Of a DNA stretch of 64,000 bases, positions 2,441-54,361 are shown piece by piece. This DNA comes from Thermophilibacter gallinarum (GTDB taxonomy: Bacteria > Actinomycetota > Coriobacteriia > Coriobacteriales > Atopobiaceae): positions 186,001 through 250,000 of the forward strand of contig NZ_JADCJZ010000001.1 of the NCBI RefSeq assembly GCF_014982725.1, read 5' to 3'. Position 1 is the stretch's first letter. Each line of letters opens with the position of its first letter. Position numbers and translations under genes: made by a program. Below the pieces are notes generated by a model. It had not been told where the DNA came from, did not search any database, and was given only the letters and a program-made list of their open reading frames with translations.

Positions 2441-2498
2441 TGACAGGATTTGCCGCTCGTGCGACCGATCCGCCGCCCGCGAGCCGCAAAACCTGTCA
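2441..2498. repeat. 58-bp palindromic element, copy 1
   Basis: An imperfect inverted repeat: TGACAGGATTTGCCGCTCG on the left and CGAGCCGCAAAACCTGTCA on the right. It lies between two convergent genes. Copies of identical length occur at 15537-15594 and 41624-41681 and share the right end (CGCGAG, then AAAACCTGTCA). It could act as a bidirectional terminator, but there is no T tract. Confidence 0.8.
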
Positions 2499-2546: not shown

Positions 2547-3395
2547 CTACCGCACCACGCGCGCGGCGCGCGGCATGACGCCCCGGGCGCTCGTCGCCAG
2601 CAGCACGTTGTTGCCGGGCTTGTGCGGCTCGTCAGGCCACTCGGCGACGTAGCCCACGTGCGCGAACTCGTGACCAAACGCGTCCACGACCTCGTCCAGA
2701 GCCCGCGCGCGACGCCCCTCGCAGGCGCAGCGCACGTTGGCGAGGTAGACGCCGTCCGCGGCGAGGTGCTCGCGCACCACCCGCGCGCCCTCGGCGCCCG
2801 TGAGCGGCCCGAGCGGTCGGTTGCCGGAGAAGGCGTCGTTCACGATCACGTCATAGGGCTCGGCGGCGGCGCGCACGAAGGCCCACGCGTCGTCGTTGAC
2901 CAGGCGCAGGCGCCCGTCCTTCTCGGCCCCCGTCTTCTTCAGGCACTCGTCGAGGAAGAAGAACTCGCGCGCCAGCTCGGTCATCGCGGGGTCGATCTCC
3001 ACCACGTCCACGCGGGCCTCCGGCACGTACGCCGCCAGGTACTTGGGCAGCGAGTAGCCGCCCCCGCCCATGACCAGCACGCGCAGCGGGCTCTCGGCCG
3101 TGCGCCCGCGCTCGGCGACCAGGTCCTCGATCACGCGGGCCATCTCGCGGTGGTACTCGCAGGCCAGCTGGAAGCGCAGGTCCTCGGGCACGTAGCAGCC
3201 GCTCTGGAAGGTGCCGTTGACGTTGATCAGGCGCACGGGCGTGCCGTCGGCGTTCTCCGCGTCAAAGACCAGCGTCACACCGAACTTGGTCCGGCGCATC
3301 TCCACGTTGCGCTTACGCAGGAGCCACGGCATCGCGGCGAGAAACACCGTGCACACGACGGTCAGCACGGCAAGGGCGATCAGGATCTCTCTCAA
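2547..3395 (-). CDS. Membrane-anchored spermidine-synthase-like protein
   Basis: This 282-residue protein has one N-terminal membrane segment (residues 3-24) followed by a Rossmann methyltransferase fold of the spermidine synthase family. A glycine-rich loop (VMGGGGYSL, about 108-116), the acidic VVEIDP strand (about 131) and VNDAFSG (about 185) are visible. True aminopropyltransferases carry a catalytic aspartate pair that is not obvious here. With no speD or speB nearby, polyamine synthesis is unproven. The TTG at 3395 is chosen because GGAGG lies just upstream. The longer open frame would run back through the tatA promoter and gene. Confidence 0.75.
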   Translation of the reverse strand: MREILIALAVLTVVCTVFLAAMPWLLRKRNVEMRRTKFGVTLVFDAENADGTPVRLINVNGTFQSGCYVPEDLRFQLACEYHREMARVIEDLVAERGRTAESPLRVLVMGGGGYSLPKYLAAYVPEARVDVVEIDPAMTELAREFFFLDECLKKTGAEKDGRLRLVNDDAWAFVRAAAEPYDVIVNDAFSGNRPLGPLTGAEGARVVREHLAADGVYLANVRCACEGRRARALDEVVDAFGHEFAHVGYVAEWPDEPHKPGNNVLLATSARGVMPRAARVVR

Positions 3396-3446
3396 GGGGC
3401 CTCCCAAGTGGCGCGCGAGAAACCCGGGCTTCTCGCGTTTTAGAGA

Positions 3447-3476
3447 TTGTGAGTAGCACGTAACCTCGGCTATACT
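3447..3476 (+). promoter_or_regulatory. tatA promoter
   Basis: TTGTGA (3447-3452) and TATACT (3471-3476) are separated by 18 bases. The tatA start lies 61 bases downstream of the -10 box. Confidence 0.6.
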
Positions 3477-3536
3477 AGCTGATGCTGTATTGGGCCTAGC
3501 GCCCGCCTGTGACATCGCATCGGAAGGACACTTCAC

Positions 3537-3866
3537 ATGATTTTTGGTATGGGCCCCATTGAGCTGCTTCTCATCGTCGTCGTCGTGCTCGTCATCTTTG
3601 GGCCCAAGAACCTGCCCAAGATCGGCTCCGCCCTCGGCAAGACCGTGAAGAACGTCCGCGAGGGCATGGAGGAGGGCTCCGAGGACAAGTCCGACGAGGC
3701 CGGCTCGCCCATCGAGTCCCACGACGACGTCGAGGTCATCGAGGACGACGATGACGCCGACGCCCCCGAGGCTGCCGCCTCCGACGCCGTCTTCTGCTCC
3801 CAGTGCGGCGCCAAGAACGCGGCCGGCGCTGCCTTCTGCTCCAAGTGCGGCAACAAGCTCAACTAA
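3537..3866 (+). CDS. tatA: TatA-type twin-arginine translocase subunit with C-terminal zinc ribbon
   Basis: This 109-residue protein has the TatA plan. A short membrane segment (residues 7-21) leads into FGPKNLP and an amphipathic helix (about 24-44), then an acidic linker (about 46-80). TatA forms the pore of the Sec-independent export system for folded proteins. Unusually, the tail ends in a zinc-ribbon-like knuckle with cysteines 87, 90, 101 and 104 in two CxxC pairs, and TatA proteins normally lack one. No tatC is in the window, and greA follows after 39 bases. It may be a regulator or assembly protein built on a TatA-like anchor. Confidence 0.8.
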   Translation: MIFGMGPIELLLIVVVVLVIFGPKNLPKIGSALGKTVKNVREGMEEGSEDKSDEAGSPIESHDDVEVIEDDDDADAPEAAASDAVFCSQCGAKNAAGAAFCSKCGNKLN

Positions 3867-3905
3867 GCGCAACTAGCGGCACACGGCAGGCAGGAGTCAT
3901 CGCAC

Positions 3906-14037: not shown

Positions 14038-14955
14038 ATGGCAAAGAACCAGTCCCGCACGCCCGGTCGCGACGTTCGCGGCGGCAAGGGCAAGGGCGGC
14101 CGTCCCTTCCGTCCCGCCTCCGGCAAGGGGCAGCACGGCGAGAAGGGCCGCGGCACCCGTCCGGTCCCGGGCGCGGCGCGCCGCGGGCCGCAGCAGCGCG
14201 ATCGCTCCGACCTCATCGAGGGCCGGCGTGCCGTCGAGGAGGCGCTGGCCTGCGGGATGCCGCTGCGCTCGGCGCTCGTTCAGGAGCGCTCCGGTGAGCG
14301 CGACCAGGCGCTCGAGAAGATCGCCGCCCGGCTCGACGAGGCCGGCGTCCCCGTCGAGCGCGTGCCGCGCGCCCGCCTGGACGCGCTCTCCAGCCATGGC
14401 GCCCACCAGGGCATCGTCGTGCGGACCCGACCTTTCGAGTACGCTGAGCTCTCCGACGTGATCGCCGCGGCGGGGGAGGGCGACGCCCTCGTCGTCGTGC
14501 TCGACCACGTGACCGACCAGGGCAACTTCGGTGCCATCGTGCGCACGGCAGAGGTCGTGGGCGCGGCGGGCGTCGTCGTGGCCAAGGCACGCGCCGCCTC
14601 CGTGGGCGTGGGCGCGTACAAGACCTCCGCGGGTGCCGTCATGCACCTGCCCATCGCGCAGGTCCCCAACCTCGCGCGCGTGATCGAGGAGCTCCAGGCC
14701 GCCGGCTTCTGGGCCTGTGCGGCCACCGAGCACGCGACCGAGGACGTCTGGCACGCTCCCATGGGCGGGCGCCTGGCCCTGGTCATGGGCTCCGAGGGTG
14801 AGGGCATCTCGCGCCTGGTGGCCGAGAAGTGCGACTTCTCCTGCCGTCTGCCGCAGCGCGGGCGCGTGGAGTCGCTCAACGTCGCCCAGGCAACGACCGT
14901 GCTCTGCTACGAGTGGCTGCGGCGCGTCGAGTGTGGCGGCGAGGCCGATGCCTAG
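14038..14955 (+). CDS. rlmB: 23S rRNA (guanosine-2'-O-)-methyltransferase RlmB
   Basis: This 305-residue SPOUT methyltransferase belongs to the TrmH family. A very basic, glycine-rich N-terminal tail (about 1-55) precedes the substrate-binding domain. Three SPOUT motifs follow: DQGNFGAIVRTAE near 160, GSEGEGISRL near 251 and SLNVAQATTVL near 279. The likely target is G2251 of 23S rRNA, by family knowledge. Some relatives modify other sites. It is translated between cysS and yacP, and its last 8 bases overlap yacP. Confidence 0.9.
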   Translation: MAKNQSRTPGRDVRGGKGKGGRPFRPASGKGQHGEKGRGTRPVPGAARRGPQQRDRSDLIEGRRAVEEALACGMPLRSALVQERSGERDQALEKIAARLDEAGVPVERVPRARLDALSSHGAHQGIVVRTRPFEYAELSDVIAAAGEGDALVVVLDHVTDQGNFGAIVRTAEVVGAAGVVVAKARAASVGVGAYKTSAGAVMHLPIAQVPNLARVIEELQAAGFWACAATEHATEDVWHAPMGGRLALVMGSEGEGISRLVAEKCDFSCRLPQRGRVESLNVAQATTVLCYEWLRRVECGGEADA

Positions 14956-15487
14956 GGCTGCCGCCCCGCGCGAGCTGCTCGTGGTTGACGGCTACAACGT
15001 CATCTACAAGTCCGAGCGCTACCTCGCCCGCATGGACGAGACCGCCGAGGGCGACCCCTTCGAGCAGGCGCGCGACCTGCTCGTCGCCGACGTGGCCGCC
15101 TATGCCAAGGGCCGCTACGAGCCCGTGATCGTCTTCGACGCGGCGGGCAACGTCTCACCGGAGCGCCCCGACCTCTCCAAGGCCGGCGTGCGCCTGGTCT
15201 TCTCGCCCGCCGGCGAGTCCGCCGACACCGTGATCGAGCGCCTAGTCACCGAGGCGCGCCTCGCCCCGCAGGCCGTGACGGTGGTCACCTCGGACAACAC
15301 CATCAGGGCCACGGTGGGCGGCATCCCCGTGACGCGCGTCTCGAGCGACGTGCTCGTGACCAACATGGACGCGCTGGACGTCGAGTACCGCCAGGCCAAC
15401 GCCGAGCGCCAGACCCAGCACATGCGCCTCGAAGACCGCATCGACCCGGCAGCCCGCGAGAAGCTCTGGCGCCTCCTGCGCGGGTGA
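14948..15487 (+). CDS. yacP: NYN-domain (YacP/Rae1-type) ribonuclease-like protein
   Basis: This 179-residue PIN-like protein starts with the family signature VVDGYNVIY around Asp14 and carries acidic residues such as VFDAAGN. In Bacillus the homologue (Rae1) is a ribosome-associated endonuclease. That role is transferred here by family only. The ATG at 14948 lies inside the end of rlmB, so translation is probably coupled. A GTGAGACAAA/TTTGTCTCAC hairpin begins at its stop codon. Confidence 0.85.
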   Translation: MPRAAAPRELLVVDGYNVIYKSERYLARMDETAEGDPFEQARDLLVADVAAYAKGRYEPVIVFDAAGNVSPERPDLSKAGVRLVFSPAGESADTVIERLVTEARLAPQAVTVVTSDNTIRATVGGIPVTRVSSDVLVTNMDALDVEYRQANAERQTQHMRLEDRIDPAAREKLWRLLRG

Positions 15488-15516
15488 GACAAAGGGGACA
15501 GGTACATTTGTCTCAC
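15484..15516 (+). terminator. Hairpin at the end of yacP
   Basis: Perfect 10-bp arms GTGAGACAAA and TTTGTCTCAC flank the 13-base loop GGGGACAGGTACA. The structure starts at the yacP stop codon and probably ends the cysS-rlmB-yacP transcript. There is no T tract. Confidence 0.6.
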
Positions 15517-15536: not shown

Positions 15537-15594
15537 TGACTACTTTTGCGGCTTGCGACCCCGGATCGGGCCGCGCGAGCGGGAAAACCTGTCA
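15537..15594. repeat. 58-bp palindromic element, copy 2
   Basis: The left arm TGACTACTTTTGCGGCTTG is a diverged version of the copy 1 arm. The right arm CGAGCGGGAAAACCTGTCA is well conserved. The length equals copies 1 and 3. It lies after yacP and before the tRNA-Thr gene. Confidence 0.75.
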
Positions 15595-15663: not shown

Positions 15664-15738
15664 GCCGGCATGGCTCAATGGCAGAGCAACGGTTTTGTAA
15701 ACCGTGGGTTGGGGGTTCGACTCCCTCTGCCGGCTCCA
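15664..15738 (+). tRNA. tRNA-Thr (anticodon TGT)
   Basis: The acceptor GCCGGCA pairs with TGCCGGC, the anticodon loop TTTGTAA reads TGT, the discriminator is T, and CCA is encoded. The cloverleaf is complete over 75 bases. Confidence 0.95.
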
Positions 15739-22067: not shown

Positions 22068-22095
22068 GTATGCGCCGTCTGTCCACGCGCGCAGG

Positions 22096-22192
22096 AAACC
22101 CGTCCCGTGTACCGGTCGGCTGGGGCAAGACCGGTACACGGGACGGGTTTTCTCAGCGAAAGGGCCCAAAACCGGTACACGGGGCCGGTTTT
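22096..22192. repeat. Three-unit convergent repeat array upstream of rpoB
   Basis: The forward unit AAACCCGTCCCGTGTACCGG lies at 22096-22116. Reverse units lie at 22130-22150 and 22171-22192. The reverse units carry ACCGGTACACGGG, then G or A/C changes, then GGTTT. The gap between rplL and rpoB is 412 bases, and this array plus the rpoB promoter fills most of it. Confidence 0.8.
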
Positions 22193-39091: not shown

Positions 39092-40805
39092 GCGCGAGAA
39101 GAGCGTCAACGCCCTCGAGGGCCCGGTGACCGAGGTCGCCGCGGAGTTCCCCGAGCGCCACGTGCTGATCAAGTGCCCCGGCTGCCGTCGCGTGATCGAC
39201 CAGGCCAAGCTGGCCGAGAACCTCGACGTGTGCCCGCGCTGCGGACGCCATCTGCGCGTCTCCGGTCGCAAGCGCATGCGCATGACCGTCGACGCCGGCA
39301 CCTTCGAGGAATGGGACCGCGAGCTCGCCGCCACGGACTTCCTCGAGTTCCCCGGCTACGCCGAGAAGCTCGCGGACGCCCGCGAGAAGAGCCACGAGAA
39401 CGACGCCGTGGTCTGCGGCCGCGGCAAGGTCGGCGGCCACGACTGCGCCCTGTTCTTCATGAGTGCCGACTTCATGATGGGCTCGATGGGCTCCGTCGTC
39501 GGCGAGAAGATCACGCGGACCTTCGAGCGCGCCACCGAGCTCGGCCTGCCGGTCGTGGGCTTCACGGTCTCCGGCGGCGCCCGCATGCAGGAGGGCACCA
39601 CGTCGCTCATGCAGATGGCCAAGGTCTCCGCGGCGGTGCGTCGTCACGGCGAGGCCGGCCTGCCCTACCTGACCGTGCTCACCGACCCCACCACCGGCGG
39701 CGTCACCGCGAGCTTCGCCATGGAGGGCGACGTCATCCTCGCCGAGCCGGGCGCGCTCGTGGCCTTCGCGGGCCCGCGCGTGATCGAGCAGACCACGCAC
39801 AAGCGCCTGCCCGCCGGCTTCCAGCGCTCCGAGTTCCTGCTCGAGCACGGCTTCTGCGACCTCATCGTCGAGCGCAAGGACATGGTCGCCACCATCGCCG
39901 AGCTTCTCGCCCTCCACGAGGGCAAGGTGCCGGGGCCGGGCGCGCCGCACGCGCTCGCCCACGAGGAGCCCCGCCGCGGGCGCGGCGCGCGCCCCAAGCG
40001 CACCCCCGCGCCCGAGAGCGCCTACGACATCGTCAAGCTCACCCGCTCCACGGAGCGCGCCACCGCCCTCGAGCTGATCGAGCGCGGCTGGGACGGCTTC
40101 GTCGAGCTCCACGGCGACCGCCTCTACGCCGACGACGCCGCCATCGTGGCCGGCATCGCCTGGAAGGGCGAGCGCGTCATGACCGTGGTCGCCATCGAGC
40201 GCGGCAACTCTACCAAGGAGCGCGTGCGCCGCAACTTCGGCATGGCGCACCCCGAGGGCTATCGCAAGGCCCTGCGCCTCATGCGGCAGGCCGAGAAGTT
40301 CGGCCGGCCTGTCGTCTGCCTCGTGGACACCTCCGGCGCCTACTGCGGCATCGGCGCCGAGGAGCGCGGCCAGGGCGAGGCCATCGCCACCAACCTCGTG
40401 GCCATGAGCGGCCTCAAGACGCCCGTCGTGAGCGTCGTGGTGGGCGAGGGTGGCTCGGGCGGCGCGCTGGCGCTCGCCGTGGCCGACCGCGTCTACATGC
40501 TCGGCAGCGCCGCGTACTCCGTGGTGAGCCCCGAGGGCTGCGCCTCGATCCTCTGGAAGGACACCAAGCGCGCCGACGAGGCGGCCGCGGCCCTGCACGT
40601 CACGGCCGAGGACCTCTCGCGCCTGGGGTTGATCGACGGCGTGGTGGCCGACCTCGGCCTCACGCACACCGAGATCGCCCACGACCTCGTGCGCGAGGTC
40701 GAGCTCGCCCTCGACGAGCTGGGAGGCCTCTCGCCCGACGAGCTCGTGGCACGCCGCTACGACAAGTTCCGCGCGATGGGAGGCGACCGCACATGCTCGC
40801 TCTAG
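39084..40805 (+). CDS. accDA: Fused acetyl-CoA carboxylase carboxyltransferase, beta plus alpha (AccD-AccA)
   Basis: This 573-residue protein joins both carboxyltransferase subunits. The N-terminal AccD part (1 to about 280) has the zinc finger with cysteines 31, 34, 50 and 53 and the GARMQEG block. A basic, proline-rich linker (about 281-312) follows. The AccA part (about 313-573) shows FVELHGDR, HPEGYRKALRLM and GEGGSGGALAL. In most bacteria these are separate genes. The fusion completes the AccB-AccC-AccDA set. It overlaps accC by 8 bases and degV by 13. Confidence 0.94.
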
Positions 40806-41599
40806 TCACCGACTCCACCTGCGGCCTCACCCGCAACGAGGCCGCCGAGCTCGGCGTCGACGTGCTGCCGATGGGCTACGTGTCCGGCGGCGTGCGCCAC
40901 GCGGAGGGCTTCATGGGGGAGAACGGCAGCTATGGCCGCGACGTCATCGTGAGCACCGAGGCCGTCCGCCCCTCGGCCTTCGAGGCCGCGTTCCGCCGCC
41001 ACCTCGACGCCGGCGACGAGGTCCTCTGCCTCACGATCTCCGCGCGCCTCTCGGGCACGTTCCGCAGCGCCGAGCAGGCCGCCGAGGCTCTCGGCGACGC
41101 CCGCGTGACGCTGCTCGACTCCTGGGGCACGGCCGGCGCGCTCGAGTTTCTCGTCCGACGCGCCCGGGCGCTCGCCAACGCGGGCAGCTCCGTCGCCCAG
41201 ATCGTCGACGAGCTCTCGGCGCTGCGCGCCTCCACGCGCATCGTCTTCAGCGTCCCCGACATGGTCGCCCTCTCCCGCAGCGGCCGCCTCGGCGCGATCC
41301 GTCGCGCGGTGGCCACCAAGCTCAACCGCTATCCCGTGATGACGCTCTCCGAGGGCGCCATCGTCAAGCTCGACGACGGCCGGGGCGCCCGCGGCATGGC
41401 CGAGGCGCTCGTCTCCCGCGCGCCCGAGGGCGCGTCGGAGCTGCTCGTCTCGCACTTCGGGGAGCGCGGGGTCGAGGCGCGCGAGGTCCTTCTCGCCGCC
41501 CGGCGCGCCTTCCCCGAGGCCCACATCCGCGTCAAGGACGGCGGCCCGGTGCTCGCCAAGCACCTCGGGATCGGCGCCGTGGCGCTCTCCTGGGCGTAG
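40793..41599 (+). CDS. DegV-family fatty-acid-binding protein
   Basis: This 268-residue protein has the DegV signature LVTDSTCGL at the N terminus, ISARLSGTFRSAE and the SRSGRLGA region. DegV/FakB proteins bind a fatty acid and present it to the kinase FakA for incorporation into phospholipid. Its place as the last gene of the fatty-acid operon fits that role. No fakA (DAK-type kinase) gene is in the window. The ATG at 40793 uses GGGAGG inside accDA. Confidence 0.88.
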   Translation: MLALVTDSTCGLTRNEAAELGVDVLPMGYVSGGVRHAEGFMGENGSYGRDVIVSTEAVRPSAFEAAFRRHLDAGDEVLCLTISARLSGTFRSAEQAAEALGDARVTLLDSWGTAGALEFLVRRARALANAGSSVAQIVDELSALRASTRIVFSVPDMVALSRSGRLGAIRRAVATKLNRYPVMTLSEGAIVKLDDGRGARGMAEALVSRAPEGASELLVSHFGERGVEAREVLLAARRAFPEAHIRVKDGGPVLAKHLGIGAVALSWA

Positions 41600-41623: not shown

Positions 41624-41681
41624 TGACAGGTTTTACGCCCCATCCGAGTCGTTTTGCGCTCGCGAGGCGTAAAACCTGTCA
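41624..41681. repeat. 58-bp palindromic element, copy 3
   Basis: Perfect 16-bp arms TGACAGGTTTTACGCC and GGCGTAAAACCTGTCA. It has the same length as copies at 2441 and 15537. It follows degV by 24 bases. The remaining 41682-41760 holds several CGAGAAG strings but no gene. Confidence 0.85.
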
Positions 41682-41907: not shown

Positions 41908-42279
41908 TTGCCTACTATCAACCAGCTCGTCCGCAAGGGCCGCATGAGCGTCAAGGCCAAGTCCAAGAACGCCGCCCTGCAGCACAACCCCCAGAAGCGT
42001 GGCGTCTGCACCCGCGTCTTCACCACCACGCCGAAGAAGCCGAACTCCGCCCTTCGTAAGGTCGCCCGTGTGCGCCTCGTGAACGGCATCGAGGTCACGG
42101 CCTACATCCCCGGCGAGGGCCACAACCTCCAGGAGCACTCGATCGTCCTCATCCGCGGCGGCCGCGTGCGTGACCTCCCCGGTGTCCGCTACAAGATCAT
42201 CCGTGGCGCCTACGACTGCGCCGCCGTCCAGAACCGCCAGAAGGCCCGTTCTCGCTACGGCACCAAGCGCCCCAAGTAG
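41908..42279 (+). CDS. rpsL: Ribosomal protein S12
   Basis: This 123-residue protein of the decoding centre contains [12 protein letters not shown] (residues 40-51), with the lysine whose change gives streptomycin resistance still wild type. The TTG start follows AGAAGGAGAG. It is the first gene of the rpsL-rpsG-fusA-rpsJ unit. Confidence 0.98.
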
Positions 42280-48254: not shown

Positions 48255-48367
48255 CGGGTTAGAAATAACGCATCGTCCCCGTCCGAAGCGCATCTCGGAG
48301 GGGGACGATGCGGTCGTTTTAACCCAAACGGCGGCGCGGACGGGGACGATGTGGTCGTTCTAACCCG
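48255..48367. repeat. Three-unit convergent repeat array upstream of rplC
   Basis: The forward unit is at 48255-48284 (CGGGTTAGAAATAACG, then CATCGTCCCCGTCC). Reverse units are at 48301-48325 and 48338-48367. The 384-base gap between the phosphatase gene and rplC holds this array, the GATACGC motif, the promoter and a leader. Confidence 0.8.
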
Positions 48368-54295: not shown

Positions 54296-54361
54296 GAGGC
54301 CCCCGGTTCATCTCCGAGAAGTGCGCTGCGCGGAACTTCTCTCCGATGAACCGGGGGCCTC
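54296..54361. terminator. 66-bp inverted repeat after rplX
   Basis: Left arm GAGGCCCCCGGTTCATC plus CGAGAAGT and right arm AACTTCTC plus GATGAACCGGGGGCCTC. There is no T tract. It splits the ribosomal operon between L24 and L5. Confidence 0.7.

Follow-up and report, generated by a model that had tools for sequence, protein, structure and literature searches.

A family of fixed-length 58-bp palindromic repeats, possibly REPIN-like, at gene ends in Thermophilibacter

Why should a palindrome recur at exactly the same length at separate places in one short stretch of a bacterial chromosome? The window, a 64,000-nucleotide stretch from a gut actinobacterium of the genus Thermophilibacter (Atopobiaceae, Coriobacteriia; genome G000, 1.85 Mb, 3 contigs), holds three palindromes (no strand assigned), at 2441–2498, 15537–15594 and 41624–41681. 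As the sequence-only reading had it, each is exactly 58 bp, and all three carry TGAC at the left end and CGCGAG...AAAACCTGTCA at the right. Copy 1 lies between convergent genes, a HAD-type hydrolase gene (1458–2393, + strand; PF08282, E = 4.4e-27) and a spermidine-synthase-domain gene that approaches from the right to within 48 nt (2547–3872, − strand; PF01564, E = 6.7e-10). Copy 2 occupies the gap from a YacP-like NYN-domain gene (14717–15487, + strand; PF05991, E = 6.2e-29) to tRNA-Thr (TGT; 15664–15738, + strand; ARAGORN, Rfam). Copy 3 lies between a DegV-family gene (40796–41599, + strand; PF02645, E = 5.1e-47), whose start was set from the domain match at residues 542–807 of a longer ORF (39173–41599), and rpsL, encoding ribosomal protein S12 (41908–42279, + strand; PF00164, E = 4e-40). 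All three thus follow gene ends, 47, 49 and 24 nt after the stop codons, respectively. The perfect 16-bp outer stem ascribed to copy 3 was borne out; a few positions are mismatched in copy 1, and pairing in copy 2 is plainly imperfect, with a degenerate left arm and TAC opposite CCT at positions 5–7. Folded as single strands, the 64-nt stretches with copies 1 and 3 do better than their shuffles (z = −4.8 to −8.8), and that with copy 2 does so weakly (z = −2.7 and −1.1).

A covariance model of 58 columns was built from 42 copies, and scores the three window copies at 63.6 bits (E = 1.2e-8), 48.5 bits (E = 8.9e-6) and 56.4 bits (E = 2.8e-7). The genome-wide search with such a model that had been proposed from the sequence found further copies, with 15 places at E ≤ 0.01; of a few weaker matches, two have a counterpart at the corresponding position in the sister species, giving about 17 copies in this genome. 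At all eight genomic places with AAAACCTGTCA, TGAC (once CGAC) stands at exactly 58 bp. Eight of the 31 genomes of the genus have matches at E ≤ 0.01: five hold about 15–25 copies each (hereafter the carriers), three have only 1–3 matches that are weaker or possibly acquired, and the other 23 have no copy. The best pattern match in one genome (G027, locus L015) resembles a RAYT-type repeat instead. Among 250 genomes of the class, the search returned only this genus and one weak match of different sequence (G164), and no relative was found in the phages, plasmids and viral contigs searched. Two matches outside the genus, in Bryobacterales and Anaerolineaceae, from a scan of named genomes, keep the end letters and not the stem, occur in near chance number and were rejected. 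No element reached the gathering score of an Rfam family, and a relaxed scan gave one sub-threshold microRNA hairpin over an element; we found no description of such a family in Coriobacteriia in the literature searched. The 58-bp palindromes are a real, well-delimited and previously unlisted repeat family.

Because the first searches had a fixed spacing, the length was re-examined in the 31 genomes by pairing GTGACnnnTTT with its complement across all 29 spacings between 24 and 52. The 43 matches, 40 at 58 bp and three at 57 bp, were confined to the five carriers, with none in the 26 other genomes and none in a reversed-pattern control. This rigid length under free spacing is the strongest single result and, together with the AAAACCTGTCA/TGAC spacing, excludes a chance origin. 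The unit consists of two inverted half-sites with a half-site consensus common to both arms. In the window's clade (clade A; G000 and G004) the half-site is TGACRGGTTTTRC followed by a GC-rich stretch, and in clade B (G012, G018 and G023) it is GAGTGACnnnTTTYGGACGGAYGAGGCC, so that the added GAG/CTC ends make a 64-bp palindrome there. Half-sites are also found singly, or as direct repeats near full copies (L125 at 1338 and 1379; L111 at 1459 and 2763).

We take the 58-bp palindrome to belong to a non-autonomous, REPIN-like repeat family that was amplified separately in two lineages, and give this reading a probability of about 0.55. REPINs have two inverted conserved ends, a spacer of set length, the capacity to form a hairpin and frequent compensatory changes (PMC3116915). 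The 58-bp element resembles those of Pseudomonas fluorescens SBW25 (PMC3116915) in its conserved, inverted ends a fixed distance apart, its less conserved, pairable spacer, its common compensatory changes, its intergenic position and its occurrence as singlets, clusters and doublets; as with REPs and REPINs generally, it is hairpin-capable, extragenic, repeated in the genome and mostly downstream of genes. It differs from REPINs in that no RAYT carries it, that there are about 17–25 copies rather than hundreds, these being strongly diverged, and that the palindrome is continuous to its ends. In the position profile, no conserved unpaired GTAG or CGTC tag was seen outside the palindrome. In the REPIN-like reading, the copies would have been placed in the ancestors of the two clades by a putative DNA enzyme needing both ends at that spacing, which probably recognizes the DNA as a folded single strand, the mode of recognition proposed for RAYTs and REPINs. 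Most of the copies may then have come to rest beyond gene ends, where they would do the least harm and be tolerated, and the family would now be mostly static, with the arms re-matched by template switching during replication.

Were the element a true REPIN, a RAYT present in the genus would move it. RAYT genes (PF01797) are present in 28 of the 31 genomes, including all five carriers, and the anatomy of the element is REPIN-like, but non-carriers have RAYTs equally often. At the 17 carrier RAYT loci, the best match of the model was a 44-nt stretch in L212 (E = 0.006), and the adjoining copy of the same repeat that is expected at a REP/REPIN-mobilizing RAYT gene was not found. Every readable RAYT of the carriers (L073, L078, L099, L211–L220 and L222) is instead flanked by inverted repeats of its own (e.g. 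GTGCAAAAGGGACAGGCACTTTTGCAC and TTGCCTAAAAGGGGACAGGCCCCTTTTAGGCAA), most of which belong to the GGGGACAG type; the 58-bp element flanks none of these RAYTs. G000 itself retains only a truncated RAYT match. Ownership of the element by a RAYT is thus not supported, and mobilization by one is very improbable; despite REPIN anatomy and place, assignment to the RAYT-moved class fails on this defining feature. The strict length without a matching RAYT raises the question of which protein reads the 58-bp element.

Repeats bearing a GGGGWSAS motif are known around RAYT/TIRYT genes (PMC3733652), and the GGGGACAG repeats, which are comparable to these TIR families, share both genomes and gene-end gaps with the 58-bp element. 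They flank RAYT genes, whereas the 58-bp element neither carries GGGGACAG nor flanks RAYTs. The three clade B genomes hold dozens of copies of RAYT-flanking repeats, and several RAYT/repeat systems stand side by side within one genome. The truncated RAYT match of G000 (C2:479406-479639, L087) covers positions 7–84 of 121 and lies beside an amino-acid ABC transporter gene, in a gene gap where relatives have an intact RAYT. Within the window, a RAYT-type repeat, GTGAGACAAAGGGGACAGGTACATTTGTCTCAC, at 15484–15516 overlaps the stop codon of the YacP-like gene and ends 20 bp before copy 2; a near-identical version flanks the RAYT gene of G004 (L099).

The gene-end position seen in the window is general. 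Among 73 classifiable copies, 34 lie between convergent, 35 between tandem and four between divergent gene pairs, as classed with a simple codon-usage gene caller; most start 20–60 nt past a stop codon, and divergent promoters are avoided. Gene-end placement of the same kind has been reported for REPs (PMC3733652). It would also suit a hairpin at transcript 3′ ends, acting as a bidirectional terminator without a U-tract or as an exonuclease block: the clustering of stop-to-element distances, the dominance of convergent and tandem sites and the strong predicted stems of copies 1 and 3 are what such a role predicts, and one relative (G024) has an ordinary terminator-like hairpin at the copy-1 site instead. 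Intrinsic (Rho-independent) terminators likewise place a hairpin 20–60 nt past stop codons, but the 58-bp element has the T and A runs swapped, with a T-run on the 5′ arm and an A-run on the 3′ arm, and a T-tract follows in only four of 87 gene-end cases. The wrong polarity and the missing T-tract exclude an intrinsic terminator. Nor does a terminator need a fixed length or fixed letters, and a separate canonical terminator is present at 17 of the 87 gene ends, about as often as at control ends. On the sense strand, G-U mismatches slightly exceed A-C mismatches at tandem sites (64:45) but not at convergent sites (48:57), giving no clear leaning to RNA. We therefore consider a role in forming or protecting transcript ends unlikely.

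The sequence-only reading took preserved pairing despite sequence change as pointing to selection on a hairpin, and held that a lack of further copies and of paired substitutions would count against it. Both exist, so that test was passed, and the excess of compensatory change that it proposed to look for is present: in the outer 16 bp of orthologues, both arms changed together in 25 cases versus 8.2 expected (inner 12 bp, 16 versus 13). Pooled copies show 78% pairing, compared with 67% in shuffles, and have a covariation score of 0.341 versus 0.173, in a pooling that mixes two clades differing in consensus letters. The arms were accordingly re-dealt among copies within each clade, with one copy per site. 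In clade A (18 non-orthologous copies), symmetric arm identity equalled that of re-dealt arms (z = 0.4); pairing here is no stronger than would be expected if each arm were an independent copy of the half-site. In clade B, arm identity was above that of re-dealt arms (z = 5.9), at positions 3, 5, 6, 8, 9, 11, 13 and 26, with the strongest coupling at 5, 6, 8, 9, 11 and 13.

At three orthologous sites (L041/L104, L115/L132 and L103/L026), the core or the whole element is inverted in place, with 12 of 12 core bases matching inverted versus six colinear at L041/L104, and 57 of 64 versus 45 at L115/L132. Template switching between inverted repeats is known to invert the spacer and homogenize the arms (PMC8604942, PMC8794818), and the core inversions between orthologues thus indicate template switching, which is able to couple arms without selection. 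Coupled arm change is therefore real, yet no proof by itself of selection on pairing; the paired substitutions noticed at the outset stand, while the step from them to hairpin selection is weakened by the clade A result and by template switching. The element resembles quasipalindromes under template switching (PMC8794818, PMC8604942) in its homogenized arms and cores inverted in place, but template switching is a mutation process and does not account for dispersed copies having letters and length in common. With coupled arm changes and core inversions both present among orthologous copies, the family is a clean natural case for telling hairpin selection from template-switch mutation.

Selection is most visible at particular letters (TGAC, TTT) rather than in pairing. 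Substitutions per site between orthologues were 0.05 and 0.04 in the two clades at consensus positions, a rate biased low because the copies were found by those letters, and 0.16 and 0.17 at other stem positions; the DNA adjoining the copies differed by 0.146 in the window's clade. The low rate at consensus letters suggests a present function rather than mere relics, which counts against the REPIN-like reading. One site (L021) in G012 and G023 holds a degenerate 64-bp palindrome that the model missed, with its ends changed symmetrically from TGAC to CGGC.

Conservation of letters above pairing, the arms of clade A behaving as two copies of one half-site, the rigid length and the half-sites in direct repeats would all be expected of a dyad-symmetric binding site, in which a putative dimeric or bridging protein, for example a nucleoid or chromosome-organizing protein, reads (G)TGACnnnTTT on both arms at fixed spacing and the hairpin is incidental. 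The TTT centres are about 41 bp apart (arithmetic from the position profile), near four helical turns, which also fits. Against this, a plain operator would not be expected to show the arm-to-arm coupling seen in clade B at positions 5–9 and 13, sites differ between species by gain or loss, most of the genus lacks the element and no candidate protein was found; we regard a plain binding site as doubtful. Similarly tentative is the idea that gut Coriobacteriia have a mobile or architectural system based on an undescribed, non-RAYT enzyme or bridging protein that measures the 58–64 bp palindrome and couples its arms; two lineages would each have kept this system on their own, with half-site sequences that co-evolved.

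The REPIN-like reading also draws on the history of the copies. The carriers fall into two separated groups, each with its own consensus. Protein context identifies 11 sites common to G000 and G004, and a flank search adds three, with G004 orthologues of window copies 1, 2 and 3 at L047, L089 and L014, respectively, and the clade B genomes share many sites among themselves; copies are thus retained vertically. Only one site is common to both clades. The neighbouring proteins of G004 there are 93–97% identical to those of clade B, compared with a between-clade identity of about 63% at the copy-1 gene, so the block at this site is best read as a probable horizontal transfer.

In the nearest non-carrier (G025) the element is absent at alignable sites, with junctions that are not clean. 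Other results tell against the REPIN-like reading: no excess of direct repeats was seen at any boundary, as a target-site duplication would give, and the orthologous gaps of relatives (carriers only, for the L018 site beside an ABC-transporter gene) gave no clean empty-site footprint, because these gaps differ by more than the element. Some of them hold other repeats or, as at L021, a degenerate palindrome. Lacking target-site duplications and clean empty sites, the element was rejected as a MITE or insertion sequence derivative. Within-genome identity between copies averages about 60–75%, which argues against a recent burst, apart from one block in G004: 129 bp including the element are identical at two places with different surroundings (L025 and L094), a hint of copying in what is a metagenome assembly. 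The right border of this block is the GGCGAGAAGGAC motif.

The window contains three more long near-perfect palindromes, at 22093–22153 (61 bp), 48256–48325 (70 bp) and 54296–54361 (66 bp), of sequence unlike the 58-bp family. GCGAGAAGAAC, with one mismatch allowed, occurs at 39 places in the window (e.g. 2526, 15610, 41696 and 41720) versus 1.6 expected, an excess due in part to the favoured codons GAG AAG AAC. The motif sometimes lies, as GTTCTTCTCGCC on the sense strand, directly past stop codons, in non-carrier species too.
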